From assembly GCA_030066075.1 (NCBI GenBank), contig JASJCH010000007.1, positions 1 through 40,243 on the forward strand: a stretch of DNA of 40,243 bases, written 5' to 3'. The position numbers and the translations under genes are program-made. Under the pieces are notes generated by a model. That model worked only from the letters and a program-made list of their open reading frames with translations. It was not told the origin of the DNA and searched no databases. Shown piece by piece: positions 16,684-34,768 of this stretch (within the stretch, counting starts at the first letter, position 1; each line of letters begins with the position of its first letter). This DNA is from Woeseiaceae bacterium. GTDB lineage: Bacteria > Pseudomonadota > Gammaproteobacteria > Steroidobacterales > Woeseiaceae.

Positions 16684-17421
16684 CTAGTAAGCGACCGAGA
16701 AGCGCTTGCCGGTGTGCCTCTCCAGTTCGGCCTCATCGAGAACCGCAACCGCGAAGTCGGCGCGCGAGATGCGGCTCTTGCCGCGACGATCTTCCATGAA
16801 CCGGTCGCCGCCCACCCGGAAGTTGCCGGTGCGCGGGCCGTCCGTGAACGTCCTCGGCGGAGTGGCATAGCTCCACGCGACGTCGTCGAGGTCCCGCAAG
16901 TACTCGAGCGCGAGAACCTGCCCCTCGATCTCGGCCTTCAGCGCCCTGGACATGAACAGCTTCGGCAGCCTGTCGGCGAAGAGCTTGCCCTCCGCGACCT
17001 CCAGCGAGCCGGCCCCGCCGACATGGATCAGCCGGCCGGACCCGTCGCCGAGTGCGCGCAGCTGTTCGGTCACGTTCACGACGGCGAGGTATTGCAGTGA
17101 ATCTTCCCCGCTTTTTCGCTCGCCGATGACGCCCCGGACCGAGGTAACCACCACGTCCTTGCCGGCAACAAGCGCCCCCACACTTTCAGGGTCGAGCAGG
17201 TCGCCGGCCACGGCGGCAAGGTTGGGGTGCTGCTTCGTAATGCGCGTCGGATCGCGGGATACGGCGGTGACGAGGTGGCCCCGGGCCAGCGCCTCGTCGA
17301 CGATATGCGTGCCGATACTGCCCGTTGCGCCATACACGAGGATTTGCAGTCCGGGACGCGGCTCCTGCGGCTGCGCGGCGCACGCGAACAGCGCGAGCGC
17401 GGCCAGCCACCAGGCTTTCAT
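16684..17421 (-). CDS. NAD(P)-binding Rossmann-fold protein with N-terminal export-like signal
   Basis: A 245-residue protein of the NmrA/NAD(P)H-binding atypical SDR group. The dinucleotide motif YGATGSIG lies near residues 30-37, followed by an acidic/basic turn (VSRDPTR), a DLLDPES strand and a conserved VGGAGS segment. An odd N-terminus precedes the fold: MKAWWLAALALFACAAQ, a typical Sec or lipoprotein signal (possible LFAC lipobox, Cys14). The ATG shares one base with the stop of the chorismatase gene (TGATG), so it is translated with the polyene genes. It might be a reductase or isomerase acting on the pigment or its head group. This is speculative. Confidence 0.75.
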   Translation of the reverse strand: MKAWWLAALALFACAAQPQEPRPGLQILVYGATGSIGTHIVDEALARGHLVTAVSRDPTRITKQHPNLAAVAGDLLDPESVGALVAGKDVVVTSVRGVIGERKSGEDSLQYLAVVNVTEQLRALGDGSGRLIHVGGAGSLEVAEGKLFADRLPKLFMSRALKAEIEGQVLALEYLRDLDDVAWSYATPPRTFTDGPRTGNFRVGGDRFMEDRRGKSRISRADFAVAVLDEAELERHTGKRFSVAY

Positions 17422-18437
17422 CAGCGCAGCCCGGCGAGACGGGTTGCGTCGATTTCTACGTGCAGCTCTCGCCGGCAGATATCGGCGTTGAGGAAGACCA
17501 CGTTACTGAAGCTGCCGCCGAGGAACTGGCCGACCGCCTGCTCGATGGCGTCCCTGTCACTTTTGTCGCGAACATAGACTCGTACGATACTGTCCGCATC
17601 GAGCGTCGCAGCAGCACCGAGACCTTCGAGCTCGCTAATCGTCTTGCCGAGACTCTGCAGGTTGTTGAGCGTCTCGTCACACTGCAGCCGAACGTCATCG
17701 GCGTGCACCGATTCATGGCCGACAATCGCCGCGGTGCCGGAGATGAGTATCAAACGCTGGTCGCCAACACTAAGGCAGCCGGCGCGGCTGAACTTCGGGC
17801 TGCGCGGGCCGTAAAGTCGCGGGTAGCGATATGCGCTGACCTGGCGCGGATTCTCGACTTTCCGGAAGTCATGCTTCGACGCCAGCGCGATGACGGAGAA
17901 GTTGCCGCTGCGAATACAGCCGATGCCCGTGGCCGCCGGGACGACCTCGTCGGTCATGCCGGCGATATCGAACGCCTCCGCTCTGCCCACCGAAAACTGG
18001 CGGTACTTTTCGTCGTCACCTTCGCCGAGGTTGATGTCGCTGAAGTAATTCCAGACGCGCACCAGTTGCCGATGCCCGGTTTCCTGCATTGCGGCGAGCA
18101 GATCCTGGTAAACGGTTTTGGACAGCGCCCGAAACTCGGTCGGCGGCGCATCCGGAACCTGCAGGATGATCGCGGCGAAATCGTCACACTCCGCGATTCG
18201 CGCAGTGCCGACGTTGCGGTAACTGACCTTCCCCCGGTACCGCCAGCACTCGTAGACGTCGTCGCCGTCGATCGGGTCGATGCCGATGCTGACCAGTCCC
18301 GGCACGTTATCGGCGGGAGTCGTCGGTCCGAAATGAAACCCGAGCAACAGGCTGCCGTCGGCGGTCGCGGACGGCCGTTCGGACTCCAGCGAGATGTGCA
18401 GGTCGTCGCTGCGCGCGACTGGCGCCGGGTTATTCAC
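17421..18437 (-). CDS. Chorismatase / hydroxybenzoate synthase, XanB2-FkbO-Hyg5 family
   Basis: Hydrolyses chorismate to pyruvate plus 3- or 4-hydroxybenzoate, which would supply the aryl starter for the polyene. The 338-residue product shows family hallmarks: the PAATGIGC segment (about residues 167-174), YRYPRLYGPRSPKFSRAG (about 203-220) and the RidA-like SGTAAIVGHESVHADD (about 233-248) with LQCDETLNNL. I chose GTG 18437, which overlaps the stop of the upstream flavoprotein by eight bases (GTGAATAA). The ATG at 18587 would read 150 bases into that gene and give a Cys/Arg-rich nonsense N-terminus. In Xanthomonas, XanB2 plays this role for xanthomonadin and coenzyme Q. No ammonia lyase is present, consistent with this route. 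Confidence 0.87.
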   Translation of the reverse strand: MNNPAPVARSDDLHISLESERPSATADGSLLLGFHFGPTTPADNVPGLVSIGIDPIDGDDVYECWRYRGKVSYRNVGTARIAECDDFAAIILQVPDAPPTEFRALSKTVYQDLLAAMQETGHRQLVRVWNYFSDINLGEGDDEKYRQFSVGRAEAFDIAGMTDEVVPAATGIGCIRSGNFSVIALASKHDFRKVENPRQVSAYRYPRLYGPRSPKFSRAGCLSVGDQRLILISGTAAIVGHESVHADDVRLQCDETLNNLQSLGKTISELEGLGAAATLDADSIVRVYVRDKSDRDAIEQAVGQFLGGSFSNVVFLNADICRRELHVEIDATRLAGLR

Positions 18438-19746
18438 TCGCGACGTTTCCGGTTCGCTGCGGACGGGCGCGCGGCCGCGGGCTCTGCGACTCGTCGAGAA
18501 TGCCGACGCGCAGCAACATAGCGACCAGCGCATACATGCCCTTGAAAACCAGCAGCCTGCGCCGCACAGCCCGGTTGCTGAAGACATCGCCCGCCAGCAT
18601 CGATATGACGCCTTCGACCATGCGGAACGCGTTGCGCGGGTTGCTGAACAGGTAGTTCATGGCAGGCGTACGGAAGCGATAAATGAACCAGGTGAACGCG
18701 TTCAGCCCGAGCTGCGTCTCTTTCTCATAGCTGCGACAGGCCCGACGATAGGCACGCTGGTCTCCCGCCAGCCAGGCGTCGGCCATGTCAATTCCCCGCT
18801 GGGCGCTGCTCATTGCGAGATGCACGCCGCTCGAGAAAATGGGATCGACGAATGCAAACGCGTCCCCAACCATCAGGAAGCCGGGACCCATCATGCGGTC
18901 GGACAGGTAAGAATAATTGCCGGTCGCCTGCGCAGGCATCTCCTGCGTGGCGTCGCGGATGCGCGAACGGGTGCCGACCATGCGGTTGACGGTCTCGAGC
19001 AGAAAGTCGTCCAGGGAGCCGCGGCGCGACTTGATGTACTCCGGGTCACAAACCGCCCCGACGCTCGTGATGTCATCGCGCAGCGGGATCATCCACACCC
19101 AGCCGTGTTCGAACCAGTAGATGCTGATGTCGCCCTGGCGCTCCCCGGAGCGGCGCTTGACGCCCCGGAAATGGCTGAAGACCGCGGCGCTGGCATGCTT
19201 GGGATTGCGATGCTTCCAGCCCTCCTTGCCGGACAGGAACGTGTCCCGGCCCGAGGCATCCACGAGGAACTTCGCCAGCCAGGTTGACTCCCGCCCCGCC
19301 GCATCGGACACGGTGACCCGGTGGCTGCCGGATTCGAGCCGCTCGACCTTCGTTACCGACATCTCCTCGTGGGCATCGACCCCGGCTCGCCTGCAGCCCT
19401 CGAACAGCATGTGATCGAACTCGGAGCGGCGCACCTGGAAGGCATGGTCAGGGCTGTCCCCGAGGGCGCGGGCAAACGGGTAGCTGTTGCTGAACGCGCC
19501 CGCGCGAAAACTCGTGAAGTCCGCGCCGTTCTTGCGCACGCCGATAGCCTCAAGCTCCTCACGCAGATCCAGTCGATCGATGATCGGCATCGTCATCGGC
19601 AGCAGCGATTCGCCGATGTGGAAACGCGGATGCTTCTCTTTCTCGAACAGAGTGACCTGCCAGCCCCGCTGCGCAGCCAGGTTGCCGAAAGTCGAGCCGG
19701 CGGGGCCACCGCCGATAATCAGGATATCTGTCGTGTTGGTCGTCAT
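18430..19746 (-). CDS. FAD-dependent halogenase-like flavoprotein 1
   Basis: A 438-residue flavoprotein of the tryptophan-halogenase/geranylgeranyl-reductase superfamily. It has the FAD-binding GGGPAG (12-17), an ESLLP segment, and a Lys at 72 (RKNGADF) in the region of the halogenase catalytic lysine. The halogenase-type WxWxIP (WVWMIP, 216-221), the GDAFAFVDP FAD site and the FxxPxxSxG pattern (299-307) are also present. The last ~90 residues are Arg-rich and hydrophobic, suggesting membrane association. It could halogenate the aryl head group, as expected for brominated xanthomonadins. Flavoproteins with these motifs can also be hydroxylases or reductases. First gene of the minus block, divergent from the acyl carrier protein gene. 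Confidence 0.85.
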   Translation of the reverse strand: MTTNTTDILIIGGGPAGSTFGNLAAQRGWQVTLFEKEKHPRFHIGESLLPMTMPIIDRLDLREELEAIGVRKNGADFTSFRAGAFSNSYPFARALGDSPDHAFQVRRSEFDHMLFEGCRRAGVDAHEEMSVTKVERLESGSHRVTVSDAAGRESTWLAKFLVDASGRDTFLSGKEGWKHRNPKHASAAVFSHFRGVKRRSGERQGDISIYWFEHGWVWMIPLRDDITSVGAVCDPEYIKSRRGSLDDFLLETVNRMVGTRSRIRDATQEMPAQATGNYSYLSDRMMGPGFLMVGDAFAFVDPIFSSGVHLAMSSAQRGIDMADAWLAGDQRAYRRACRSYEKETQLGLNAFTWFIYRFRTPAMNYLFSNPRNAFRMVEGVISMLAGDVFSNRAVRRRLLVFKGMYALVAMLLRVGILDESQSPRPRARPQRTGNVASE

Positions 19747-19771
19747 TGCCGGGCCGGCGCTGGGCGTGTAT

Positions 19772-19797
19772 TGATAATTCCGGTCAACAAATTATCA
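19772..19797. promoter_or_regulatory. 26-bp inverted repeat in a divergent promoter region
   Basis: TGATAATT (19772-19779) and AATTATCA (19790-19797) are perfect 8-bp arms around a 10-base centre. They are the only AT-rich sequence in the 96-base gap between the divergent flavoprotein and carrier-protein genes. On the plus strand, TTGATA (19771-19776) and TATCAT (19793-19798), 16 bases apart, could serve as -35/-10 elements. The dyad would then be an operator overlapping the promoter. No regulator gene for it is seen in the cluster. Confidence 0.5.
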
Positions 19798-19842: not shown

Positions 19843-20109
19843 ATGCGGCCCCAGTCTGAATTCGAGCAGGAAGTTGCGCAGCTCATCGTCGAATCGCTGA
19901 ATCTCGAGGATATTGGCGCCCCGGACATCGACCCGGACGATGCGCTATTCGGCGAGGGCCTGGGACTGGATTCCATCGATGCCCTCGAGCTCGCGCTCGC
20001 CATCTCCCAGAAGTACTCGGTGCAGCTCAAAGCCGATGATGCGAACGTCCAGGAAGTGTTCGGTTCGCTCGGCAGTCTCAGCGCCTACGTAGCCGAGAAC
20101 GCGCCCTAA
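19843..20109 (+). CDS. Acyl carrier protein 1 of the polyene pathway
   Basis: An 88-residue carrier protein carrying the phosphopantetheine attachment motif GLDSIDALEL (Ser44). It is acidic and four-helix in outline, typical of aryl-polyene carrier proteins (ApeE/ApeF type). The reading frame stays open upstream to 19321, across the divergent flavoprotein gene. ATG 19843 is chosen because it gives a normal carrier-protein length and lies outside that gene. The Shine-Dalgarno is weak. It leads the block carrier protein, ligase, LolA-like protein, exporter. Being next to the ligase, it is the likely acceptor of the aryl starter. Confidence 0.9.
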   Translation: MRPQSEFEQEVAQLIVESLNLEDIGAPDIDPDDALFGEGLGLDSIDALELALAISQKYSVQLKADDANVQEVFGSLGSLSAYVAENAP

Positions 20110-20126: not shown

Positions 20127-21440
20127 TTGAAAACTTCTTACCCGCTCACCACTCGCAGGCTGGACGACGTCATCGCCTGCGTCGATGGCGTCGACGTCCG
20201 CGTCGGCGAGTTTCTCGGGCAGGTGCAGGCGCTGGCAGCCACGCTGCCGAATCACCGTTATGTCATCAACCTGGCGGGCAATCGCTACCAGTTCCTGCTC
20301 GGGTTTTGCGCGGCCATCGCCGCCGGGCAGTGCACGCTGCTGCCGCCGAACCGGCAGAAGGCAACGATTGCGGGCATTGCCGCTGAGTACGGCGACAGCT
20401 ATGTCTTCGAGGAGGCCACCGTGCCGCCAGCGGCGCCGGTAAGGGAGGTACCCGAAGTCCCGGCCGACCGGCTCGTGGCCATGATTTTCACGTCGGGCAG
20501 CACGGGTGACTCCACCGCGCATCCGAAGTACTGGCGCATGCTGCGCGACGGCGCCGTCGCCAACACGGAGTGCTATGGCATCGGGCGCGAGCGCATCTAC
20601 ATGCTGGCCACCGTGCCGCCGCAGCACAACTGGGGCCTCGAGACCTCGGTGCTGCTGCCGCTGATCGCCGATATCGCTGTCAGCAGCGAAACGCCGTTTT
20701 TTCCGCAGGATATTGCCGACGCTCTCGCCAGGCTGCCCGAGCCCCGGGTCATCGTCTCCTCGCCCATTCACCTCGAGTCGCTGCTCAATTCCGGAATCGA
20801 CGCGATCACGATCGACCTTATCCTGAGCGCCACGGCGCCGCTCTCGCAAAGGCTCGCGGGCGAACTCGAGACGCACTTCTCGGCCCGGGTCAACGAGGTG
20901 TTCGGCTGTACCGAGGCCGGCTCGCTGGCATCGCGAGCGACCGCCAGCGAATCGTTGTGGCAGGTCGCCGCGCCGTTCCGGTTCGACGTTCTCGATAACA
21001 GGGTTCGAATCAGCGCCGACCACCTCCCCGAACCCGTGGTTCTCAATGACATCATCGAGCTGGTCGGGGACGCTTCGTTCCGCTGGCTGGGCCGCGACCA
21101 GGACATGATCAATATCGCCGGCAAGCGCGGGTCACTGGCTCACCTCAATCACCGGCTGGCGCAGATACCGGGCGTCGTCGACGGCGTCATCTTCCTGCCG
21201 GGCGAGGACAGCAAGCGGCTCGCCGCCCTCGTCGTCGCGCCGGGCCTTGAACCGTCTGCTATTCTGGACGCGCTCAAAGAGACCATCGATCCTGCCTTCC
21301 TGCCGCGGCCTTTGTACCTGGTACCGACGTTGCCGCGACAGGAAACCGGCAAGCTGGCGAGGAAGATGGTCCTCGACCTGTTCGAGGCTACAAGGAATCT
21401 CTCCGAAGACGATGGCGCGCCTGCCGACAAGCCCGCGTAA
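20127..21440 (+). CDS. Stand-alone adenylating ligase loading the aryl starter
   Basis: A 437-residue ANL-superfamily acyl-AMP ligase, short like ApeH-type enzymes. The phosphate-binding motif FTSGSTG (121-127) runs into DSTAHPK, the A5-like region is EVFGCTEAG, the A7 motif is RWLGRDQDMINIAGKR, and the C-terminal catalytic Lys is in QETGKLARK. It probably activates hydroxybenzoate as the adenylate and transfers it to a carrier protein. The apparent start is TTG 20127, 17 bases after the carrier-protein stop, without a clear ribosome site. Translation may depend on coupling, or the true start may lie slightly downstream. In E. coli- and Xenorhabdus-type clusters the ligase sits with the second carrier protein. 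Here it sits in the export arm. Confidence 0.85.
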   Translation: MKTSYPLTTRRLDDVIACVDGVDVRVGEFLGQVQALAATLPNHRYVINLAGNRYQFLLGFCAAIAAGQCTLLPPNRQKATIAGIAAEYGDSYVFEEATVPPAAPVREVPEVPADRLVAMIFTSGSTGDSTAHPKYWRMLRDGAVANTECYGIGRERIYMLATVPPQHNWGLETSVLLPLIADIAVSSETPFFPQDIADALARLPEPRVIVSSPIHLESLLNSGIDAITIDLILSATAPLSQRLAGELETHFSARVNEVFGCTEAGSLASRATASESLWQVAAPFRFDVLDNRVRISADHLPEPVVLNDIIELVGDASFRWLGRDQDMINIAGKRGSLAHLNHRLAQIPGVVDGVIFLPGEDSKRLAALVVAPGLEPSAILDALKETIDPAFLPRPLYLVPTLPRQETGKLARKMVLDLFEATRNLSEDDGAPADKPA

Positions 21441-22017
21441 ATCGACACGTCACGGTGCGCGCGCACTGTTGGCGCTGGCAGCCGTGTTCCTGGGTTCGCC
21501 GGGCTGGTCCGCCGACCTGGCGACGATCCTGGCCTCGACAGCGGTCGAGCCGCCGGCCCGGATCGGCTTCCGCGAGGAGCGGCATAACCCGATGTTCAAG
21601 GAGCCGATGGTGCTCGCCGGCCGCCTCGAGTACCTCGACAGCGGCACGTTACGCAAGGTAGTGGAGATCCCGTTCGAGGAAGACATCCTCGTGCAAGCGA
21701 ACCGCGTCATCGTGACCAGGGACGGTAAGACCCGCAAGCTGTCGCTAAACCGCAGCCGGGCGCTCAAGACCATTCTCGGCGCCATCGAAGCTGTGCTGGC
21801 CGGCAACCAGGAACGGCTCGAGGAGTCCTTCCTGTGTGACGTCGCAGCCACCGACGACGGCTGGTCGCTGCACATGACGCCGCTGTCGAAAGGCGTAGCG
21901 AAGCGCCTGTCCGGGCTCCAGGTTACCGGCAACGAGCAGGCCGTCACCAGCATCCGCATCAACCTGCCCAATGACGAGTGGCACCTGATGCGGATCGGCG
22001 ACGAACTGCCCAAGTAA
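21412..22017 (+). CDS. LolA-like outer-membrane lipoprotein carrier homologue
   Basis: A 201-residue periplasmic protein with a twin-basic N-region, hydrophobic core (ALLALAAVFLG) and cleavage near GWSA. The mature part has the LolA/LolB-like open-barrel pattern: F-x-E-x-R-x-NPMFKEPMVLAGRLEYLDSGTLRK, then VTRDGKTRKLSLNRSR and a C-terminal TGNEQAVTSIRI region. Aryl-polyene clusters usually encode such a protein beside an MMPL exporter, where it is thought to ferry the lipid-linked pigment across the periplasm. I take ATG 21412, which overlaps the ligase end by 29 bases. The open frame upstream (to 21247) is an out-of-frame shadow of the ligase. Confidence 0.82.
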   Translation: MARLPTSPRKSTRHGARALLALAAVFLGSPGWSADLATILASTAVEPPARIGFREERHNPMFKEPMVLAGRLEYLDSGTLRKVVEIPFEEDILVQANRVIVTRDGKTRKLSLNRSRALKTILGAIEAVLAGNQERLEESFLCDVAATDDGWSLHMTPLSKGVAKRLSGLQVTGNEQAVTSIRINLPNDEWHLMRIGDELPK

Positions 22018-22028: not shown

Positions 22029-24305
22029 GTGTCTGTCGCGTTGCAACGGTCGCTCTGGTGGCTCGGCGCTATCGCCGTTGCCGTCCTCATACTACTAACC
22101 CGGCTGCAACTGAGCTTCGACCTCAGCGCGTTCTTTCCCCGCCAGGCCACGTTGTCCCATGAAATCCTGATCGAGCAGGTTCGCAACGGTCCGGCGTCCC
22201 GCCTGCTGGTGATCGGCGTCGGCGCCGCCAGTCCGGACGACGCGGCCGAGGCGGGGCGGCTGCTGCAAGCGACGCTCGTGGACGATCCGGCTTTCGTCGC
22301 GGTTCTCAACGGCGAGTTCGACGAGCAATCGGCCGACGTGCCGTTCCCGGTCAGCGACTACTACCTGCTCATGGACGATCTCGACTTCGCAGCGGACGCA
22401 CTGCAATCGGTGCTGCAGGACCGGCTGCGCGACCTCGCGTTCGGCGGCGGCGCGGATTTGCTGGCGCTGATCGCTCGCGACCCCTACCTCGCGACAATCA
22501 ACGTGCTCGAATCCCTCTCGCCAGCCGAGCTCAGCGGCGATCCCTGGATCGCGCAGAACGGCAGCGCGGTGCTGCTGGCCGAGACGGCGGCCGCCTCGAT
22601 CGACATCGACGCCCAGGCGCGCGCCGTGGAGGCTATCAGCGCCGGGTTTGCCGCCCTGCCCGGCAGCGGGGGGCTGACGCTCGATATCACCGGGGTGGGC
22701 GCCTTCAGTGTCGAGCTGCAGGAAACGATACGCGCCGAGGCCACGTTGCGCAGCGTGCTCGCCAGCATCGCACTGCTGGCGGTGCTGTTCCTCGTGTTCC
22801 GCAACGTCCGCAAGTTGTTGCTCGCGGCGCTGCCGCTGCTCACGGGGTTTGTCGCCGGGCTCACCGTCGTCGCGGTCCTGTTCGACACGGTACACGGCAT
22901 CACGCTGGCATTCGGGTTCACGCTGCTCGGTGTGGCCATCGACTACCCGCTGCACCTGTTCAGTCACGCGCGGCGCGACTCGGGTTTGGCGGCCATTCGC
23001 CGCATCTGGCCCACGATGCGCCTCGGCGCCGCAAGCACGGTCGCCGCTTACCTTGCACTCGTGTTCTCCAACTCGACGGGGCTCGCGCAACTCGGTGTAT
23101 TCACCGCGGTTGGCGTGATCGTCGCGAGCCTGGCGACGCGCACCTGGCTGCCCTGGTTATTGGACGACAGCGCAGCGGCGGCGACCGATGCCGCACCGGC
23201 AAGCACTCCGCGGCTCTCCTTCCTGGTGGCCCCCGGCGTGCTGCTGATCGCTGCGCTGGCCGCGTGGCCGCGTTTCGATGCAGGGCTCTGGGACGACAAC
23301 CTGTCCAGCCTGAGTCCGGTCGCCCCGGAGCGGCTGCAATCGGATCACGTGCTGCGCTCCGCCGCCGTGACGGCAGACCTGCGCTACCAGCTAACGCTGC
23401 ACGCCGGCTCGCTCGAGCAGCTGCTGCGCGACAGCGAAACCCTGGATGCGGTCCTCGCAGATGCGGTTGACGAGGGAATCCTCGGCAGCTGGCAATCGGT
23501 AACCCAGGTCCTGCCCAGCGCACGCGTCCAGGAAACCCGTCGGGCGAGGATTCCGGAACGCGATGCGCTCGCCGCCAGCATTGCCGCGGCGATCGAGGGC
23601 ACGCCGTTCCGGGCCGACGCTTTCAATACCTTCCTCGACGCCGCTGACGCCGCGAAAGCCGCGCCGGCGCTGACCGCGGCCGACATCGAGGGGTCAGTCC
23701 TGGGATCATGGCTCGACGCCCACCTGCTGCAACTCGACGACCGCTGGGTCGCGCTGACGTCGCTGGTCGGTCCCGACCCGGGGCGGCTGGCAACCCATAT
23801 CGCGAACGCCGGGGTCGCTGCCGACCTCGTCGATTTCCAGGAGGCTTCCGTTGCGCTGATGCGCGACTATCGCGGCACGGCACTGCGCACCATCCTCGTG
23901 GCCGCATTGCTCATCGTCGCCATACTCTGGTGGGTGCGCGGCAATCTCGCGCAGACTGCCTGGGTAACGCTTACGGTCGCGGCCTCATTGACGGTAACCA
24001 TCGCGGCGGTTGTTTTTGTGCACGGCAGCCTGACCGTGATCCACATGGTCGCTCTCCTGCTCGTGCTGGGCCTCGGCCTGGATTACGCGCTGTTCCTGAG
24101 CCGATCGGAACCTGCTGGCGAACGAGCGGCAACCGATAAGGGCGTGATGGCGTGCGCCGCCTCGACGACCATCGCGTTCGCGATCCTCGCAGCGTCGTCA
24201 ATCCCGGTGCTCAGGTTCCTCGGGCTGACGGTCGCTGCTGGCTCGCTCATCAGTTTCGCGATCGCCTGGGGAGGCAGCCGCTTGCGCTTGCGGCGGGTTA
24301 GTTGA
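22029..24305 (+). CDS. MMPL/RND-superfamily exporter of the polyene product
   Basis: A 758-residue inner-membrane exporter with the two-fold RND layout: one membrane segment (about residues 8-26), a periplasmic domain, and about five segments (about 230-400, including LAFGFTLLGVAIDYPLHLFSHARR with the intramembrane acidic residue). Then come a membrane segment, a second periplasmic domain, and another five segments (about 610-755, VLGLGLDYALFLSRSE). Half-length compared with HAE-RND pumps, as for aryl-polyene and hopanoid MMPL exporters. It likely moves the lipid-linked polyene toward the LolA-like carrier. GTG 22029 has an AAAGG site eight bases upstream. The ATG at 21978 would overlap the LolA-like gene. 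Its stop overlaps that of the opposing halogenase-like gene by eight bases. Confidence 0.87.
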   Translation: MSVALQRSLWWLGAIAVAVLILLTRLQLSFDLSAFFPRQATLSHEILIEQVRNGPASRLLVIGVGAASPDDAAEAGRLLQATLVDDPAFVAVLNGEFDEQSADVPFPVSDYYLLMDDLDFAADALQSVLQDRLRDLAFGGGADLLALIARDPYLATINVLESLSPAELSGDPWIAQNGSAVLLAETAAASIDIDAQARAVEAISAGFAALPGSGGLTLDITGVGAFSVELQETIRAEATLRSVLASIALLAVLFLVFRNVRKLLLAALPLLTGFVAGLTVVAVLFDTVHGITLAFGFTLLGVAIDYPLHLFSHARRDSGLAAIRRIWPTMRLGAASTVAAYLALVFSNSTGLAQLGVFTAVGVIVASLATRTWLPWLLDDSAAAATDAAPASTPRLSFLVAPGVLLIAALAAWPRFDAGLWDDNLSSLSPVAPERLQSDHVLRSAAVTADLRYQLTLHAGSLEQLLRDSETLDAVLADAVDEGILGSWQSVTQVLPSARVQETRRARIPERDALAASIAAAIEGTPFRADAFNTFLDAADAAKAAPALTAADIEGSVLGSWLDAHLLQLDDRWVALTSLVGPDPGRLATHIANAGVAADLVDFQEASVALMRDYRGTALRTILVAALLIVAILWWVRGNLAQTAWVTLTVAASLTVTIAAVVFVHGSLTVIHMVALLLVLGLGLDYALFLSRSEPAGERAATDKGVMACAASTTIAFAILAASSIPVLRFLGLTVAAGSLISFAIAWGGSRLRLRRVS

Positions 24306-25866: not shown

Positions 25867-25867
25867 G

Positions 25868-26680
25868 TCAGGCCTGCGCGGCCTTTGCGGCAGTCGCGAA
25901 CTCGAGGGAAAGATCCAGCGTGGAACCGCTGGACAGCGGCAACGCCGTCGTCGATGCCTCGCCGTGTGCGAGCGCTGCCAGCAGCGGCAGCAGCGGGGCA
26001 ACGAAGTTGTCGCTGAACCCGGTGCCCGCAATTTCCATTGCCGCGGGCGTGTCGGCAGCCTCCGCGCGCACCCCGAGGCTCAGCGCCGCGAGCGGCGCGG
26101 CTGCGTGGCCCTTCGGCGTCAACAGCAGCGCCGTGGCCAGGGGCTCTTCGGTTTCGATAACCGACCGGAACGGCTGCGGCGCAGCGAGCTCCTCGAGCGC
26201 CACCAGCACCGGGACCTGCTCCTCGACGGCTTGCACCGCCCCCTCGAGCAGCGACGCGGCGACCGTGTTCGAGTGAGCCGAGATAGCGTTTGCCGGTAAA
26301 TGTGACCCGGTCGCAATCGACCAGTAGCCCGTCGACGCGTTGTGCACCGAGTTGTGAAACTTGGTCGGCGACACCATGCGCGGCGCATCAGCAAGCGTCC
26401 GGCAGATGTAGTCCGTGATCTGCATGTCGCCCATGCCCGAACCGAAGACTGTCGCGACATCGGTCGCGTCTATGCCCGCCATCCGGCAGGCCTGGTCCAT
26501 GACCTCGACCGCCATTTTCACCGCCGCCGGCGCGCGCCGCCGCTCCCGGGCCGGAATCAGCTCCGGCTTCAGCGCGCCCGCCGCTTCCGGCGTCGCTCCG
26601 GCAAGGGCGTCCCGGAACTCGTCCCAGTTCGCGAATCTCTCGCTCCAAATGCCGATGCCCGCGATATCGACGTCAGTCAT
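25868..26680 (-). CDS. Ketosynthase-like protein without active-site Cys (chain-length-factor type)
   Basis: A 270-residue beta-ketoacyl-synthase N-terminal domain protein. It shows thiolase-fold landmarks (VFGSGMGDMQITDYICRTL, FHNSVHNASTGYWSIATG), but where ketosynthases have Thr-Ala-Cys-Ser it reads ISAHSNT. A Ser (137) therefore replaces the nucleophile. The C-terminal half is short and lacks the HGT and GH histidine motifs. Aryl-polyene systems pair an ApeO ketosynthase with an ApeC chain-length factor, and this gene directly follows a full ketosynthase, overlapping it by eight bases (ATGACTGA). ATG 26680 is preferred to 26719 on that basis. It probably acts only as a partner subunit. Confidence 0.85.
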   Translation of the reverse strand: MTDVDIAGIGIWSERFANWDEFRDALAGATPEAAGALKPELIPARERRRAPAAVKMAVEVMDQACRMAGIDATDVATVFGSGMGDMQITDYICRTLADAPRMVSPTKFHNSVHNASTGYWSIATGSHLPANAISAHSNTVAASLLEGAVQAVEEQVPVLVALEELAAPQPFRSVIETEEPLATALLLTPKGHAAAPLAALSLGVRAEAADTPAAMEIAGTGFSDNFVAPLLPLLAALAHGEASTTALPLSSGSTLDLSLEFATAAKAAQA

Positions 26681-27945: not shown

Positions 27946-28746
27946 ATGAAACATCTCTTCTACGTCTACCGCTTCATCGGCACGTCGCTATTCTGGTTTT
28001 TCTTCGGCGTCATCGGGCTGATCTACGGTTTCCTGCTCCTGCCGCTGGTGTACCTCGTCATCCGGCGGCCGGAAAGGCGCCAGGTGATCGCGCGCGACAT
28101 GATCCGGGGCGCGTTCGTTATGTTTGTCTGGGTAGCGCGCACAATGCGGCTGATACGGTGCGACATAACGGGCATGGAGCATTGGGACCCGCAGCGGAGC
28201 CAGCTATTGCTGGCCAACCACCTGACGCTGATCGACGTGGTCATCCTGCTGTCGCTGTTCCCGCAGGTGGACTGCGTCGTCAAAGCCGCGGTCACCCGCA
28301 ATCCCGTGCTGCGCGTATCGGCAGGCACGGCCAACTACATCTCCAACCGGGCCCCGGACGAGCTGCTCGACTTCTGCGTCGGGCGCCTCGACTCCGGCTC
28401 CAGCCTGCTGCTGTTCCCCCAGGGAACCCGCGCCATTCGCGGCGAGCCGCTCGCCTTCAAACTCGGCGCCGCCGAAATCGCGCTGCGCGCCAACGCCACG
28501 ATCGTGCCGATCGCCCTCGACTGCAACCCGCAAATGCTGGCCAAGCGCGTCCCCTGGTACCGGATACCGCCGTCGCAACCACACTTTCGCATCAGCCTGC
28601 TGCCGCCGGTCGCTGCTGACTCGCTCGTTCCCGAGGGCACCGATTCGCGCCGCGCGCGCCACGAACTCAATGCGGCGCTGGAGGGGCTTATCGGGGCGGA
28701 ATTGGCGCGGCGCGAGGCAGAAAACCGGTCGCCTTTGCAAAGTTGA
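27946..28746 (+). CDS. PlsC-family 1-acyl-glycerol-3-phosphate-type acyltransferase
   Basis: A 266-residue membrane acyltransferase. A hydrophobic N-terminal pair of segments (about residues 8-40) is followed by the catalytic NHLTLIDVV (NHxxxxD box) and FPQGTR (the FPEGTR substrate site with Gln for Glu). Such an acyltransferase opens many aryl-polyene operons and is thought to help attach the chain or a fatty acid to the lipid anchor. It begins the longest block of the cluster (to 34768). The second carrier protein starts 17 bases after its stop. Confidence 0.87.
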   Translation: MKHLFYVYRFIGTSLFWFFFGVIGLIYGFLLLPLVYLVIRRPERRQVIARDMIRGAFVMFVWVARTMRLIRCDITGMEHWDPQRSQLLLANHLTLIDVVILLSLFPQVDCVVKAAVTRNPVLRVSAGTANYISNRAPDELLDFCVGRLDSGSSLLLFPQGTRAIRGEPLAFKLGAAEIALRANATIVPIALDCNPQMLAKRVPWYRIPPSQPHFRISLLPPVAADSLVPEGTDSRRARHELNAALEGLIGAELARREAENRSPLQS

Positions 28747-28763: not shown

Positions 28764-29000
28764 ATGGATAAAGACGAACTCTACGGACAGCTCAAGGGCA
28801 TACTGATTGACCAATTCGAGCTGGAAGAGTCTTCGATTACACCGGACGCAAACCTGTACGACGAGCTGGAGCTCGACAGCATCGACGCCGTGGATCTCCT
28901 CGTACAGCTCAAGAACATCACCGGCAAGAAAATCTCGCCGGATGATTTCAAGGATGTCCGCACGATCAACGATGTCATCAACGCCCTGACGGCCCTTTGA
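28764..29000 (+). CDS. Acyl carrier protein 2 of the polyene pathway
   Basis: A 78-residue acidic carrier protein with the attachment motif LELDSIDAVDLL (Ser39) and a C-terminal helix typical of short aryl-polyene carrier proteins. It differs clearly from the 88-residue carrier protein at 19843. One may hold the aryl starter and the other the elongating chain. It lies between the PlsC-like acyltransferase and the first dehydratase. Confidence 0.92.
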   Translation: MDKDELYGQLKGILIDQFELEESSITPDANLYDELELDSIDAVDLLVQLKNITGKKISPDDFKDVRTINDVINALTAL

Positions 29001-29053: not shown

Positions 29054-29464
29054 ATGCAGGATTCCTTGCTGAAGCGCTTCATTCGCGAGCCCGCGCTGCT
29101 GGCGCAGCAGGTCAGCGGCGACTTTCCGGCCGTTGTCTCCGTCACGCTTAGCGACGGTCGAGTTACCGTCGAGCTCGAGGTAACGCCTGACCTCGCCTGG
29201 TTCCGCGGACATTTTCCCGACCAGCCCGTTCTTCCCGGCGTAATCCAGCTGCACTGGGCCGCCGAAGTCGCGGCCATCCTCTTCGATCTCGACGGCCCGC
29301 CGCAGCACATCAAGCGCCTGAAGTTCAGCAACGTCATCGTCCCGCCGCGCGTCATCGAGCTGAGCCTCGAGAAACACGGCGACCGTGAGGTCCAGTTCCA
29401 TCTCCAGGGTGATGGCCTGCAGCACTCCCAGGGGCGGCTGGTCTTCGCCGAGCCGGGACAATGA
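29054..29464 (+). CDS. Hot-dog dehydratase, FabA/FabZ-like (ApeI-like)
   Basis: A 136-residue hot-dog-fold protein that would dehydrate 3-hydroxyacyl-ACP to create each double bond. The catalytic-region signature FRGHFPDQPVLPGVIQLHW matches FabZ/FabA-type active sites, with His in GHFP. A full-length partner is encoded at 31614. In characterised aryl-polyene systems ApeI and ApeP work as a heteromeric dehydratase. The 53-base gap before it is the longest in the block and holds a 10-bp palindrome CTGGCGCCAG (29029-29038). The ribosome site is weak. Its last four bases overlap the next start (ATGA). Confidence 0.88.
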   Translation: MQDSLLKRFIREPALLAQQVSGDFPAVVSVTLSDGRVTVELEVTPDLAWFRGHFPDQPVLPGVIQLHWAAEVAAILFDLDGPPQHIKRLKFSNVIVPPRVIELSLEKHGDREVQFHLQGDGLQHSQGRLVFAEPGQ

Positions 29465-30207
29465 AACTCTGCCTGGTGGTTCCGCACTACGATCACGTCA
29501 CCCAGTTCCGGCGCCTCATGCCGTCACTGCTGGCGACTGAACTGCCCCTGGTGATCGTCGATGACGCGAGTCCGGCCGACGCCTTCTCCGAGCTGCAGCA
29601 ACTGGTTGCCGCGAGCGCCGGCGACATCCAGCTGGTGCGGCACGACGAAAACCAGGGCAAAGGCGGCGCGGTAACCACGGGCCTGATGACAGCGCACGAC
29701 GCCGGATACTCGCACGCGTTACAGATCGATGCCGACGGCCAGCACGACGTGAGCTATTTCGACGACCTGCGCGCGCTGTCCCGGGAACACCCGGATGCGA
29801 TCATCTGCGGAGAACCGATGTTCGACGCCTCGATTTCCAGGGTGCGCTATTACGGGCGTTACCTGACCCACGCGCTCGTCTGGCTGGAAACGCTCAGCAC
29901 GGATATTCGCGACGCCATGTGCGGCTTTCGCATCTACCCGACCGACGCGGTCGTCGCCCTGATCAAAAAGAAGGCCCCCGGACCGCGGATGGCGTTCGAC
30001 CCCGAGCTGCTCGTCAGGGCATCCTGGGCCGGCATCCCGATTCGTTACACGCCGGTCACCGTGCGTTATCCGGAGGACGGTGCGTCACACTTCCACTACT
30101 TCCGCGACAACGCCATCATCTCCTGGATGCATACGCGGCTGATCGTCGGGATGATCCTGCGGCTGCCCATGCTGTTGTGGCGCAAAGTCCGGGGGCGGCG
30201 ATCGTGA
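29461..30207 (+). CDS. Family 2 glycosyltransferase
   Basis: A 248-residue GT-A enzyme, DPM1/WcaA-like. It has an N-terminal nucleotide-binding strand (LVIVDDASP), the DENQGKGGAV loop, the metal-binding DADGQHD and a C-terminal amphipathic segment near MILRLPMLLWRKVRGRR suited to membrane contact. In many aryl-polyene clusters a glycosyltransferase domain is fused or adjacent to the LpxL-like acyltransferase, and here they are separate genes overlapping by four bases (GTGA). It likely adds a sugar to the lipid anchor or head group. Donor unknown. Confidence 0.88.
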   Translation: MKLCLVVPHYDHVTQFRRLMPSLLATELPLVIVDDASPADAFSELQQLVAASAGDIQLVRHDENQGKGGAVTTGLMTAHDAGYSHALQIDADGQHDVSYFDDLRALSREHPDAIICGEPMFDASISRVRYYGRYLTHALVWLETLSTDIRDAMCGFRIYPTDAVVALIKKKAPGPRMAFDPELLVRASWAGIPIRYTPVTVRYPEDGASHFHYFRDNAIISWMHTRLIVGMILRLPMLLWRKVRGRRS

Positions 30208-31178
30208 GCGAGAACCGCCACTGGGCATCGATCGGCGAGGCCGGCGCGCTGGCCGGGCTGCGCTTCATGGCCTGGACGTACCGGCTGCTCGGGCGCGTCG
30301 GTTTCAACATCGTGCTCGCGCCGGTTATGTTTTACTTTCTGCTGCGCCGGACCACGGCACGCCGCGCCTCGCTCGACTACCTGCGCCGCGTCAAGCGCGA
30401 GTACCCCGACAGCCTCCGCGGCAGCCCGGGGCTGTGGATGACGTTCCGGCACTTTCTCGCATTCGGCCGCTCGCTGCTCGACAAGTACATCGCGCTAACG
30501 GGCGAGCCGACCAACATCGATATTCGTCAGCAGGATGCCGACCTGGTGCTACCCGTTATCGAGTCGCGCAAGGGCATCCTCCTGGTCGGCTCTCACTTCG
30601 GCAACCTCGAGTACTCCAAGGGTCTCGCGAGGCGACACCCGGAGCTCGTAATCAACGTGCTCCTGTATGACCGGCACGCCGCCAACTTCGCGAAGCTGAT
30701 GGGCGACGCGTCGCCGGATTCGCGCCATAACCTGATCCAGGTCACCGACCTCGATCTCGATCTCGCGCTGCGCCTCAAGGAGCGGGTAGACAATGGCGAG
30801 TGGCTTTTGATCGCAGGCGACCGCGTGCCCGTCGGTCTCAGTGATAACGTCTGCCCGGTCAGGTTCCTCGGCGACACGGCGAATTTCCCGATCGGCCCTT
30901 ACGTGCTCGGCAACCTGCTGCACTGCCCTGTCTACATCATGCACTGCTACTTCGAGTCCGGCATGCATCGGCTTCGTGTAGAGTTGCTCGAGGAGGAAAT
31001 CACGGCAACGAGGAAGGACCGGCAGCGCAATTACGAACCGCAGGCACAGAAGTTCGCGTCGGCCCTGGAATCCCAGGTGAGCAAGGCGCCGCTGCAGTGG
31101 TTCAACTTCTACGACTTCTGGGCGAGCCAGACGCGCTCCGCCGCCGGCGACGACAAGACCCCCGATGATAAAGACTGA
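30204..31178 (+). CDS. LpxL/HtrB-family acyltransferase
   Basis: A 324-residue inner-membrane acyltransferase related to lipid A late acyltransferases. It has a membrane segment near residues 30-47, the HX4E catalytic motif in GSHFGNLE, LYDRHAANF, IAGDRVPVG and a C-terminal WFNFYDFW. Such proteins in aryl-polyene clusters are thought to transfer an acyl or polyene chain to the anchor. GTG 30204 is chosen because it overlaps the glycosyltransferase stop as GTGA and follows GGGGGCGG. The frame open from 29919 is a shadow. It overlaps the thioesterase gene by 14 bases. Confidence 0.87.
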   Translation: MSENRHWASIGEAGALAGLRFMAWTYRLLGRVGFNIVLAPVMFYFLLRRTTARRASLDYLRRVKREYPDSLRGSPGLWMTFRHFLAFGRSLLDKYIALTGEPTNIDIRQQDADLVLPVIESRKGILLVGSHFGNLEYSKGLARRHPELVINVLLYDRHAANFAKLMGDASPDSRHNLIQVTDLDLDLALRLKERVDNGEWLLIAGDRVPVGLSDNVCPVRFLGDTANFPIGPYVLGNLLHCPVYIMHCYFESGMHRLRVELLEEEITATRKDRQRNYEPQAQKFASALESQVSKAPLQWFNFYDFWASQTRSAAGDDKTPDDKD

Positions 31179-31617
31179 TTTTTCGAACTGCCTGACTGCT
31201 GCCGTCGACGTGCGTATCCCCTTCTTCGACCTCGACCCGGCAGGCGTCGCCTGGCACGGCCGTTATTTCCAGTATTTCGAGCTGGCGCGCTGCGCGCTGT
31301 TCGAAGGCTTCGACTACAGCTACGACGCCATGGAGGACTCGGGTTTCCTGTGGCCGGTCGGGGACACGGAGGTTCGCTACGTGCGGCCGCTATTGCTGAA
31401 CCAGTCGGTACGGGTCACGGCGTGCCTGCGCGAATGGGAATTGCGGCTCGTCGTGGACTACAAGATCGAGGATGCCGACGGTGTCTTGTACACGAAAGCC
31501 CGCACCGTGCAGGTGCCCGTCGATGCCGAGACCCACGAACTCGTGCTCGGGTCGCCGCAGGTCCTGATCGATCGCGTTGAGAGGCGGCTCGCGGAGGCGG
31601 GCCTGGGGACGGAATGA
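31165..31617 (+). CDS. 4-hydroxybenzoyl-CoA thioesterase-family hot-dog protein
   Basis: A 150-residue YbgC/4HBT-type acyl thioesterase. The signature FFDLDPAGVAWHGRYFQYFE places the catalytic Asp and conserved His/Tyr as in the family. It probably releases or edits chains on the carrier proteins, the ApeK-like role in aryl-polyene clusters. It overlaps the preceding gene by 14 bases and the next by four (ATGA). Confidence 0.9.
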   Translation: MIKTDFSNCLTAAVDVRIPFFDLDPAGVAWHGRYFQYFELARCALFEGFDYSYDAMEDSGFLWPVGDTEVRYVRPLLLNQSVRVTACLREWELRLVVDYKIEDADGVLYTKARTVQVPVDAETHELVLGSPQVLIDRVERRLAEAGLGTE

Positions 31618-32087
31618 ACGACCAGGCCTTTATCGACGCGCTGCAGCAACTGGCGGGATCGCCGGCCAGCCGCTTCGTTTTGCACCGCGAACCCATGCTG
31701 TTCGTGGACCGGCTGACGGCGATCGGGCCCGAGTTCGCCGAGTGTGAATGGGAGGTCCGGGAGGACTTCGCCCTGCTCGTCCATGGGCACGGCGTACCGA
31801 GTTATGCCGGCATCGAGTATATGGCACAATGCGTCGCCGTCCATTCGGGCGCGCGGGCGCACGTGCGCGGCCAGGAGCCGCCTCTCGGCATGCTGCTGGG
31901 AACTCGCAATTACCAGTGTTCGGTCCCGTACTTCGAGGTGGGCGGCAAGTTCAGGACGGTTTGCCAGGAGCTGGTGCGCGACTCGCAGGGAATGGGCTCC
32001 TTCGCGTGCCGCATCGAGGCGCAGGACGTTGTTATTGCGGAGGCCAACCTGGCGGTCTTCGAAACCCCGGACGATTCGGATGAATAG
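31614..32087 (+). CDS. Second hot-dog dehydratase (ApeP-like)
   Basis: A 157-residue FabZ-like protein recognisable by the aryl-polyene-specific pattern VPSYAGIEYMAQCVAVHSG together with HREPMLFVDRL at the N-terminus. It lacks the GHFPxxPxxPG loop of its partner at 29054. In studied systems ApeP needs ApeI for full dehydratase activity, and the same pairing is expected here. Its stop overlaps the ketoreductase start by eight bases (ATGAATAG). Confidence 0.87.
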   Translation: MNDQAFIDALQQLAGSPASRFVLHREPMLFVDRLTAIGPEFAECEWEVREDFALLVHGHGVPSYAGIEYMAQCVAVHSGARAHVRGQEPPLGMLLGTRNYQCSVPYFEVGGKFRTVCQELVRDSQGMGSFACRIEAQDVVIAEANLAVFETPDDSDE

Positions 32088-32814
32088 CGAACAATCGAGC
32101 ATTCTGGTGACCGGCACGAGCTCGGGCATCGGCCGGGCCATCGCGGTGCGGCTCGCAGCCGACGGCTACACGGTGGCCGCCCACTACGGCCGCAACAAGG
32201 AAGGCGGCGAAGCGACCCGCGACGCTATCGAGGCAGCCGGCGGGACCTGCCGCCTGATGTCCTTCGACATCAGCGACGCCGAGGCCACGCGGGCTGCCCT
32301 GGAGCAGGACATCGCCGACAACGGCGCCTACTACGGCGCCGTTTGCAACGCGGGCATGACCAGGGACGGACCGTTCCCGATGCTGTCCGACGAAGACTGG
32401 AACCGCGTCATCGACGTCAACCTGAACGGCCTTTACAACGTCCTGCACCCGATCGTGATGCCGATGCTCCGCCGCCGCAAGCCCGGCCGGATCGTCACGA
32501 TTTCATCGGTCTCCGGGCTGATGGGCAACCGCGGCCAGGTCAATTACAGCGCATCGAAAGCCGGCATCATTGGTGCGACCAAGGCGCTCGCCATCGAGCT
32601 GGCCAAGCGGCAGATCACGGTCAACTGCGTCGCGCCGGGCCTGATCGAGTCGGACATGACCGAGGAGCTGCCGCTGGAGCAGATGCTCGAGGCGATTCCG
32701 CTGCGTCGCATCGGCCAGGCCGACGAGGTCGCCGCGCTGGTGTCATTCCTGTGCTCCCCGGATGCGGGTTACATTACGCGCCAGGTGATCTCAATTAACG
32801 GGGGGCTGTGTTGA
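32080..32814 (+). CDS. 3-ketoacyl-ACP reductase, FabG-like
   Basis: A 244-residue classical short-chain dehydrogenase/reductase that reduces the 3-keto group in each elongation round (ApeQ-like). It has the cofactor site VTGTSSGIG, NAG in VCNAGMT, the catalytic Ser in TISSVSG, YxxxK in YSASK and the PG motif in CVAPGLIESDM. ATG 32080 gives the normal length. The longer open frame from 31744 is a shadow of the dehydratase. It overlaps the next ketosynthase gene by up to seven bases. Confidence 0.92.
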   Translation: MNSEQSSILVTGTSSGIGRAIAVRLAADGYTVAAHYGRNKEGGEATRDAIEAAGGTCRLMSFDISDAEATRAALEQDIADNGAYYGAVCNAGMTRDGPFPMLSDEDWNRVIDVNLNGLYNVLHPIVMPMLRRRKPGRIVTISSVSGLMGNRGQVNYSASKAGIIGATKALAIELAKRQITVNCVAPGLIESDMTEELPLEQMLEAIPLRRIGQADEVAALVSFLCSPDAGYITRQVISINGGLC

Positions 32815-34040
32815 CGAGGCGTGTCGTAATCACGGGTGTCGGGGCGTATTCGCCCATCGGCAATGACTGGCCGACGATCGAGGCGAACCTGCGCGCGCTC
32901 AGCAGCGGCGTTCGCCACGTGCCCGAGTGGGAAGAGTACGAAGGTCTCAACACGAAACTCGGCGCGCCGGTTCCGGACTTCGAACCGCCCGCGAGTTTCA
33001 CGCGCAAGCGTACGCGCAGCATGGGTCGGGTCGCGATGCTCGCGACGGCCGCCAGCGAGCACGCGCTCACGGACGCCGGCCTGCTCGGCGACCCGGTATT
33101 GCAGTCCGGACGCGTTGGCGTGGCGTACGGCTCATCGACGGGCAGCACCCAGGCGATCACCGACTTTGCCAACATGCTCCTGACCAAGTCGCTCGACGGC
33201 ATCACGGCGACAACCTACATCCGCATGATGGGTCATACGACGCCGGTCAATATCGGCGTGTTCTTCGGCCTCAAGGGCCGGGTCATCACAACATCGAGCG
33301 CCTGCACGTCGGGGAGCCAGGGTATCGGCTACGCCTTCGAGGCGGTGCGCAGCGGCGCGCAGGACATCATGGTCGCTGGCGGCGCGGAAGAACTGTGCCC
33401 GACCGAGGCCGCGGTCTTCGACACCTTGTACGCGACCAGCACGATGAATGACCAACCGGAGCGGTCGCCGCGGCCGTTCGACGTCGACCGGGACGGCCTG
33501 GTGATCGGCGAGGGGGCCTGCACGCTCATCGTCGAAGATCGTGACCACGCGCGCGCGCGCGGCGCTAACATCTACGCCGAGATCGTCGGTTTTGACACCA
33601 ACGCCGATGGCGCTCATGTCACCCAGCCGTCCTCGGACATGATGCAGCGCGTGATGGAGATGGCGCTGGCCGACGCCGGGCTCGAGCCCGACGCGATCGG
33701 CTACGTCAGTGCACACGGCACGGCCACAGAACGCGGCGACATCGCCGAGTCGCATGCGACAGAGCGCGTGCTCGGCGGCACGGTCCCGGTCAGCTCCCTC
33801 AAGAGTTACATGGGGCACACGCTGGGCGCCTGCGGCGCGCTCGAGACGTGGCTCGCCGTGGAGATGATGAATCGCGGCTGGTTTGCGCCCACGATCAACC
33901 TGGACAACGTCGATCCCGAGTGCGCGGCGCTGGACTACATTCGCGGCGACGGCCGGGAGCTCGAGACCGAGTACGTGATGAACAACAACTTCGCGTTCGG
34001 CGGCATCAATACGTCGCTGATCATGCGACGGCACCCCTGA
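32808..34040 (+). CDS. Second beta-ketoacyl-ACP synthase, FabF-like (ApeR-like)
   Basis: A 410-residue full FabF-type condensing enzyme with SSACTSGS (Cys166), SAHGTATERGD (His303), KSYMGHTLGACG (His337) and NNNFAFGGINTS. In aryl-polyene systems the ApeR ketosynthase is considered to start the chain on the aryl-ACP. The start is uncertain between GTG 32808 and TTG 32811. The latter overlaps the reductase stop as TTGA and sits at better distance from the G-rich ribosome site (32799-32805). Confidence 0.9.
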   Translation: MLTRRVVITGVGAYSPIGNDWPTIEANLRALSSGVRHVPEWEEYEGLNTKLGAPVPDFEPPASFTRKRTRSMGRVAMLATAASEHALTDAGLLGDPVLQSGRVGVAYGSSTGSTQAITDFANMLLTKSLDGITATTYIRMMGHTTPVNIGVFFGLKGRVITTSSACTSGSQGIGYAFEAVRSGAQDIMVAGGAEELCPTEAAVFDTLYATSTMNDQPERSPRPFDVDRDGLVIGEGACTLIVEDRDHARARGANIYAEIVGFDTNADGAHVTQPSSDMMQRVMEMALADAGLEPDAIGYVSAHGTATERGDIAESHATERVLGGTVPVSSLKSYMGHTLGACGALETWLAVEMMNRGWFAPTINLDNVDPECAALDYIRGDGRELETEYVMNNNFAFGGINTSLIMRRHP

Positions 34041-34057
34041 GCGATTCAGCGCAAGCG

Positions 34058-34768
34058 ATGAAACCAGCGACCCTGAGCGTCGCCTGGGCGACAAACGCCG
34101 ACCTGGCGAGCGTACCCGACAGCGACCTGCCAGCGGCGGAGCTCGAACGGGCCAGCCGCTTCGGGTCGGAACTGCGCCGACAGCAGTACACCGCCTCGCG
34201 CGCAATGCTGCGCGCGCTTCTCGCCGACTACACCGGCCGGCCGGCCTCTTCCTTCCAACTCGGCGCCGACGACCGTGGCAAACCGCTTTGCGTGGACGGT
34301 CCGGCCGTGAGCATCTCCCACAGTGGCGATTTTGTCGCGTGCGCGGTCTGCGACGTCGGCGATATCGGCGTCGACCTCGAATTCTGGAATCGCTCCAGGG
34401 ACGTCGAGGCCATCGCGCGGCGGTTTTTCTCACCCGAGGAATCCGAGTGGCTGGCGACTCAGCCGGCGGACCATTTCTACCGGTTGTGGGTCCTCAAGGA
34501 GGCATGGCTCAAGGCAACCGGCGTTGGCCTTTCGGGCGGCCTCGACAAGCTGCGCTGCATTGTGAAACCACCGGTGATCGAGACGCTCGCAGGCTCCGCG
34601 CCGGTCGCGGCCCTGCGGCTATACGCATTGCGCGACGGGCTGCTCGGCATCGCCGCCGTTGACGAGCGGCCCGCAGGCATCGAGGTGCGGCGCTGGTCAC
34701 CCGCGCAGAGCGAATTCGTTGCCGATGACGACCTGCGGCTGATCGCCGACAGCGAAGCGGACGACTAG
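34058..34768 (+). CDS. 4'-phosphopantetheinyl transferase, Sfp type
   Basis: A 236-residue enzyme that would convert the two apo carrier proteins to their active form. It carries the family motifs SISHSGDFVACAV, GVDLEFWN (metal-binding Asp/Glu) and FYRLWVLKEAWLKATG. ATG 34058 is chosen as it follows the ketosynthase stop by 17 bases. The frame is open from 33848 but only within that gene. It closes the polyene block. A dedicated transferase in the cluster suggests the carrier proteins are not served by the housekeeping AcpS alone. Confidence 0.9.
   Translation: MKPATLSVAWATNADLASVPDSDLPAAELERASRFGSELRRQQYTASRAMLRALLADYTGRPASSFQLGADDRGKPLCVDGPAVSISHSGDFVACAVCDVGDIGVDLEFWNRSRDVEAIARRFFSPEESEWLATQPADHFYRLWVLKEAWLKATGVGLSGGLDKLRCIVKPPVIETLAGSAPVAALRLYALRDGLLGIAAVDERPAGIEVRRWSPAQSEFVADDDLRLIADSEADD

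Follow-up and report, generated by a model that had tools for sequence, protein, structure and literature searches.

The window, a 40,243-nucleotide stretch of DNA from a Woeseiaceae bacterium, contains a complete xanthomonadin/aryl-polyene gene set at positions 16684–34768, in which each named component is an open reading frame identified by Pfam and motif checks. At its left end three genes lie on the reverse strand; they encode an NAD(P)-binding protein (NAD_binding_10; 16684–17421), a XanB2/ArcB-type chorismatase (FkbO_Hyg5-like_N; 17421–18437), and a flavoprotein with the fold of flavin-dependent halogenases in the position of XanB1/ArcA, here termed F1 (18430–19746). With its start set at the GTG at 18437, the chorismatase gene overlaps the end of the F1 gene. 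Four genes on the forward strand follow: acyl carrier protein 1 (ACP1, 19843–20109; PP-binding, with the serine motif GLDSID), an aryl-ACP/AMP ligase (20127–21440; AMP-binding, 8.6e-13), a LolA-like carrier (21412–22017; LolA_3, start chosen), and an MMPL/RND exporter (22029–24305; MMPL, start uncertain). The next three are again reversed, namely a second flavoprotein, F2 (24298–25866; Trp_halogenase, 3.6e-13), in the position of the Xanthomonas “halogenase” behind the ketosynthase/chain-length factor pair, a half-size chain-length factor (CLF) of the ORF16/ArcJ type (25868–26680; Ketoacyl-synt_2), which by alignment lacks the cysteine motif of ketosynthases, and ketosynthase 1 (KS1) of the ORF17/ArcK type (26673–27860; Pfam, ACSSS). 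For F2 the ATG at 25866 was taken as the start, giving 522 amino acids, rather than the mechanically assigned TTG at 26031.

The remaining genes all lie on the forward strand. They encode a phospholipid-type acyltransferase (27946–28746), acyl carrier protein 2 (ACP2, 28764–29000; an open frame with the serine motif ELDSID), an ApeI-type dehydratase (29054–29464; ApeI-like), a family 2 glycosyltransferase (GT2, 29461–30207), a lipid A-type acyltransferase (30204–31178; start chosen), a 4HBT thioesterase (31165–31617), an ApeP-type dehydratase (31614–32087; ApeP-like), a ketoreductase (32080–32814; start chosen), ketosynthase 2 in the position of ApeR (KS2, 32808–34040; SACTSG), and an Sfp-type phosphopantetheinyl transferase (PPTase, 34058–34768; ACPS/4PPT_N, start chosen); the two acyltransferases, the glycosyltransferase, the thioesterase, the ketoreductase, and KS2 were assigned with Pfam. 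Every component of the core set listed in the initial annotation was thus recovered by Pfam and motifs at agreeing coordinates; that list had left out the glycosyltransferase and the NAD(P)-binding protein.

Upstream of the pigment genes, at 181–5496, the window encodes an MtrC/OmcA-like cytochrome and an NrfB-like multiheme protein (10 CXXCH motifs each) together with an MtrB/PioB porin, which looks like an outer-membrane electron conduit. Between the cytochrome and the pigment genes (5538–16618) are genes for a MacB-like/FtsX permease, an ABC ATPase, and HlyD-type proteins, as well as a sigma-54 response regulator with histidine kinase and two amidohydrolases. The locus extends the xanthomonadin cluster type to an uncultured lineage, the neighboring genes of which suggest extracellular electron transfer.

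The arrangement of the cluster is kept in three genomes of the same genus (G024, G020, and G016) and is therefore not due to chance. All 20 cluster queries were matched in G024 and G020, and 19 of 20 in G016, where the NAD(P)-binding protein is missing and the match to the PPTase is short, weak, and located elsewhere. ACP1 identity ranges from 51 to 97% across four same-genus loci, and in G024 it is the carrier domain itself that matches at 97%; ACP2 was matched in all four same-genus loci examined. The gene for the NAD(P)-binding protein adjoins that of the chorismatase in two of three same-genus clusters, and also at loci L029 and L030. In a fourth congener, G012, the aryl-polyene cluster is of another sort and encodes a flavoprotein of a third type (F3). 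Layouts related to that of the window's cluster occur in other Gammaproteobacteria (e.g., L087, L105, and L107). Gene order was compared with that of reference clusters, as had been proposed beforehand. The block acyltransferase–ACP2–ApeI–GT2/lipid A-type acyltransferase–thioesterase–ApeP–ketoreductase–KS2 is collinear with the published E. coli ape genes D, E/F, I, J, K, P, Q, and R, and the chorismatase, F1, F2, and KS1 with its partner match xanthomonadin clusters, so that two published layouts are united here. As a cluster the locus is ordinary, a further example of the xanthomonadin type that has the customary pair of flavoproteins; it has a XanB2-family chorismatase within its bounds, and KS1 is followed at once by its half-size, Cys-less partner.

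The chorismatase scores 206.6 bits against TIGR04444, which is under the cut-off of 325. Aligned to Hyg5, it has the glycine of the motif SGTA and the cysteine and glutamate of DICRRELHVE, positions at which FkbO, by alignment, has alanine, alanine, and glutamate. Published work names three residues for enzymes forming 3-hydroxybenzoate, of which the glycine and the cysteine correspond to two, and an active-site residue, to which the glutamate corresponds; the comparison covers these three positions, Gly-164 lying outside it, and the matching of residue numbers is our own. Whether a chorismatase of this kind yields 3-hydroxybenzoate only, or both 3- and 4-hydroxybenzoate, is not readable from sequence alone according to the Azoarcus work (PMC3949708). 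The predicted product is likely to be 3-hydroxybenzoate, with a mixture of the 3- and 4-isomers being possible. The proposal of a hydroxybenzoate-primed, xanthomonadin-like route agrees well with a chorismatase inside the cluster that has the glycine and cysteine of 3-hydroxybenzoate formers. Priming by an ammonia-lyase, as for flexirubin, was considered and rejected, no such Pfam match being present among the 36 open reading frames scanned.

The two flavoproteins are divergent, and both are predicted to adopt halogenase-like folds; halogenases and monooxygenases share one fold. That both have intact WxWxIP and FxxPxxSxG signatures, as initially described, was borne out, and both families keep them. 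F1 matches Trp_halogenase, and its GxGxxG, WxWxIP, and Fx.Px.Sx.G motifs and a lysine of the catalytic type (K72) are invariant in all 16 aligned rows; its halide motif is the regular S-S-G. Its best sequence matches in the PDB are Mpy16, CmlS, CndH, and ChlB4 or, with the family profile, Mpy16, CndH, ChlB4, and FasV. With the profile, one geranylgeranyl reductase scored 71 bits versus 284 for the best halogenase, the halogenase MalA' scoring 61–64. Among the fold matches listed for F1, the best is an uncharacterized flavoprotein, 3nix. F2 has GxGxxG, K78, WVWIIP, and FADPFYSPG, the catalytic lysine and the motif letters being invariant in all 47 rows of its alignment (the window plus 46 of 80 kept loci). 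The F2 model has a pLDDT of 93.7, and CtcP, PltM, CmlS, Bmp2, and PltA are among its listed fold matches. For both proteins, the best characterized sequence matches are halogenases.

In a first tree long branches were prominent: a geranylgeranyl reductase fell inside F1 (branch length 5.92), and F2 joined tryptophan halogenase (94/87). The tree was rebuilt without six rows (the geranylgeranyl reductase, the tryptophan halogenase, an FAD oxidase, the L100 flavoprotein, and two KMO-like proteins); as these were dropped, nearness to geranylgeranyl reductases or tryptophan halogenases is not read from it. In the rebuilt tree neither F1 nor F2 groups with the UbiH hydroxylases, F2 sitting on a long stem. 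A phylogeny placing both flavoproteins among non-halogenating reductases or hydroxylases, which had been named as an outcome that would speak against halogenation, was thus not obtained as far as the rebuilt tree goes; AU tests of F1 or F2 grouping with reference halogenases gave no decision (p 0.43 and 0.32). Membership of F1 in the F3 group, formed by 3nix and proteins of G012 and Steroidobacter, was ruled out by the tree. The F3 group, which includes the structural-genomics protein 3nix, is represented in an aryl-polyene cluster of a congener and in Steroidobacter; its loci are L017 (8458–9855), L183, L185, L186, and L189.

The halide site of flavin-dependent halogenases consists of two backbone NH groups, with glycine usual at the second position and the role of the site debated; the associated motif is given as Fx.Px.Sx.G (PMC7336383). 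In F2 the halide motif reads S-P-G in all 47 aligned sequences, so proline, which has no NH, stands at the first site, as judged by alignment and not by model geometry; in the F2 of the window this residue is Pro328. S-P-G was part of one of the two F2 search patterns, which makes its constancy in L029–L108 partly a matter of construction; the motif also occurs in the 10 other aligned F2 rows, which were found without that pattern. In the seven halogenases aligned for comparison (Mpy16, CndH, ChlB4, FasV, CmlS, PltA, and RadH) the first site is serine, threonine, or glutamine; PltM and CtcP, which are near F2 in fold, lie outside this set. By motif F1 would be the better halogenase candidate, while by distribution F2 would be the better candidate for a brominase.

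That F2 might be an oddity of the lineage was rejected: relatives are encoded, with E values of 1e-3 or lower, in at least 556 stretches of the named genome contigs scanned, of which 80 loci were kept. Of the 80 loci, 74 extend more than 2.3 kb upstream of F2, and 67 of these have KS1 and CLF upstream in the same orientation as F2, CLF being no more than 1.5 kb away; in 16 of the 67 a GT2 match lies between KS1/CLF and F2, as in Xanthomonas. A whole-genome search for F1 covered 46 of the 80 F2 genomes: 37 were positive with E values no higher than 2.1e-167, a Steroidobacter genome had only an F3-like match (1.9e-69), and eight had none at 1e-60. All 35 genomes of the genus of Xanthomonas prunicola encode F2, which is split into two pieces in one of them, and 33 of the 35 encode F1 as well as F2. 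The genome with the split F2 (L150, G474:C1) still has matches to F1 and the other X. prunicola-matching cluster genes, and its pigment would be informative; two others (L151 and L152, in G462 and G477) keep F2 and lack F1 at the threshold of 1e-60. In the genus Steroidobacter, F2 proper was found in 8 of 14 genomes (E 1.4e-219 or better) and F1 proper in none of the 14, the best match to the F1 profile (6.0e-75) being of the F3 type; such F3-type matches at 1e-40 are present in 11 of the 14.

In a class-wide sample of 369 genomes, 63 besides that of the window had a strong CLF match (E 1.5e-38 or better); 31 of these encode only F1 (E below 1e-150), five only F2, one both, and 26 neither, absences being soft since for most genomes the number of initial candidates scored was just 3, 4, or 7. 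F1 is thus the commoner of the two, and no positive association between F1 and F2 was found in this sample (Fisher p 0.10). In the window F1 adjoins the chorismatase and ACP1, and 18 of the 28 F1 stretches examined in the class also contain a chorismatase match, a comparison in which weak “flavo1” labels were ignored, some of these queries coming from loci without F1 and possibly being F2-like.

Xanthomonadins are diagnostic brominated pigments; a literature search, with most subscription papers outside its reach, found no experiment assigning the xanthomonadin brominase. A published legend to the Xanthomonas cluster labels H as halogenase and XanB1 as putative reductase/halogenase (PMC3838355); we take H to be F2 and XanB1, which lies beside XanB2, to be F1 by position. 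X. campestris has three characterized brominating halogenases, Xcc4156 among them (PMC7336383). The pigment of S. cummioxidans 35Y is dibrominated, C27H28Br2O3, a table in the same paper giving O2 (PMC5979037). For L. enzymogenes neither a halogenase gene nor a bromine pattern of the pigment is reported (PMC3691225). In Azoarcus, arcA is listed as “halogenase” beside the XanB2-type arcB, and the pigment, arcuflavin, is a nonbrominated heptaene (PMC3949708); by gene order and annotation ArcA (azo3921) is apparently the counterpart of F1. Bromination thus goes with F2 in a few cases, Xanthomonas and Steroidobacter, 35Y not being known to be among the 14 genomes searched; as X. campestris has three other brominating halogenases, the link is a correlation. 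F1 looks neither necessary nor sufficient for bromination, provided that ArcA is F1 and that 35Y resembles its genus; alternatively, bromide missing from the medium could be why the Azoarcus pigment is unbrominated. The few known chemistries therefore tie bromination to F2 and not to F1, whereas the motifs point the opposite way as to which is the regular halogenase.

The initial annotation had concluded from the two flavoproteins that a mono- or dihalogenated product is plausible. A brominated yellow, xanthomonadin-like product is indeed plausible from the gene content, but the presence of two halogenase-like enzymes is unremarkable, both having relatives in Xanthomonas, and F1 alone is a weak argument for halogenation of the product, because the “halogenase” in the F1 position of Azoarcus goes with an unbrominated pigment. 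The further deduction that the product should lack a methyl branch, as the cluster has no methyltransferase gene, is unsupported. The published Lysobacter cluster is without such a gene, yet its pigment is drawn as methylated by the authors, who propose that the activity is recruited; in Azoarcus the methyltransferase gene belongs to a second arc locus, apart from that of the chorismatase. Given these two cases and a window genome that is 79.69% complete in 114 contigs, the missing gene does not indicate an unmethylated product.

We favor, at a probability of about 0.55, the explanation that this is a xanthomonadin-type aryl-polyene cluster in which F2 is the tailoring halogenase and F1 acts at the stage of the starter acid. 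From the ape and xanthomonadin literature we infer the following order of reactions. The chorismatase would provide 3-hydroxybenzoate, perhaps also 4-hydroxybenzoate, which the ligase would load onto a PPTase-primed carrier protein; KS2 would start the chain, and KS1 with its Cys-less partner would extend it with malonyl units, the ketoreductase and the two dehydratases giving the polyene. Thioesterase, acyltransferases, and glycosyltransferase may then join the polyene to lipid, and the MMPL and LolA-like proteins would serve transport to the outer membrane. F2, probably a brominase, would work with the elongating ketosynthase pair, and F1, the gene of which neighbors those of the chorismatase and ACP1, would act on the starter acid. 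The role of F2 is favored by its presence in the genera Xanthomonas (35/35) and Steroidobacter (8/14), for the latter of which strain 35Y is reportedly dibrominated, and by L. enzymogenes, for which neither a halogenase gene nor bromine is reported. Against it stand the proline in the halide motif, the long stem, the other halogenases available (three in X. campestris, two in the genome of the window), and F3, which most of the 14 Steroidobacter genomes also carry; the coexistence of F1 and F2 in a single one of the 63 CLF-bearing class genomes speaks against a pairing of the two.

A rather doubtful alternative makes F1 the aryl halogenase acting on 3-hydroxybenzoyl-ACP, with F2 halogenating the ring-proximal end of the polyene. 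PltA, Mpy16, and ChlB4 act on carrier-bound rings, and Mpy16, CmlS, CndH, and ChlB4 are the best PDB matches of F1, which has the canonical S-S-G and lies beside the chorismatase and ACP1. Such a split would fit xanthomonadin I, in which ring and chain each bear one bromine, as well as the joint presence of both proteins in 33 of 35 Xanthomonas genomes. However, arcuflavin is unbrominated although the arc cluster has a gene in the F1 position, and the genus Steroidobacter is without F1 proper, yet a member reportedly makes a dibrominated pigment. Less probable still, F1 and F2 would be oxidases or hydroxylases acting on the aryl moiety or the polyene, and the pigment would be halogen-free or halogenated by an enzyme encoded elsewhere. 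The fold common to halogenases and monooxygenases, the proline in F2, and 3nix as best fold match of F1 would all suit this, as would two other Trp_halogenase genes elsewhere in the genome, but halogenase motifs kept throughout both aligned families, characterized halogenases as best sequence matches, and F2 in genera reported to make brominated pigment argue otherwise. Those two genes (G000, contig C99, 11770–13119 and 15112–16503) match Trp_halogenase far more strongly (610 and 402 bits). Least probable is a speculative scheme in which F1 brominates the carrier-bound ring and F2, an isolated family with a Pro-disrupted halide site, brominates the polyene end of a chain bound to KS/CLF, which would be a vinylic halogenation at an unconventional halide site.

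The cluster preferred here as xanthomonadin-type, with F2 as tailoring halogenase, resembles four known systems to differing degree. With Xanthomonas pig/xan (L149) it has in common chorismatase, ligase, ACP, KS with Cys-less partner, and GT2, and also LolA, MMPL, acyltransferases, ketoreductase, F1, and F2; it differs from X. prunicola in the presence of KS2, a second ACP, thioesterase, ApeP, and PPTase, queries for which were unmatched in the 20 kb X. prunicola stretch, where diverged or distant copies are possible. For the other three, the comparison follows published descriptions. The arc genes of Azoarcus sp. BH72 likewise place a “halogenase” next to a XanB2-type enzyme and include KS with partner, glycosyltransferase, acyltransferase, exporter, and LolA, but differ in their two unlinked loci, a methyltransferase, a separate dialkylresorcinol cluster, a single gene labeled halogenase in the table, and an unbrominated product. 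The pigment cluster of Lysobacter enzymogenes OH11 shares the type II PKS, the ORF16/17 pair, and ORF5, the XanB2 homolog, but is without a halogenase gene. E. coli CFT073 ape shares the order acyltransferase, ACP, ApeI, glycosyltransferase/acyltransferase, thioesterase, ApeP, ketoreductase, KS, whereas its table of 18 genes has neither chorismatase nor flavoprotein and includes the methyltransferase ApeB.
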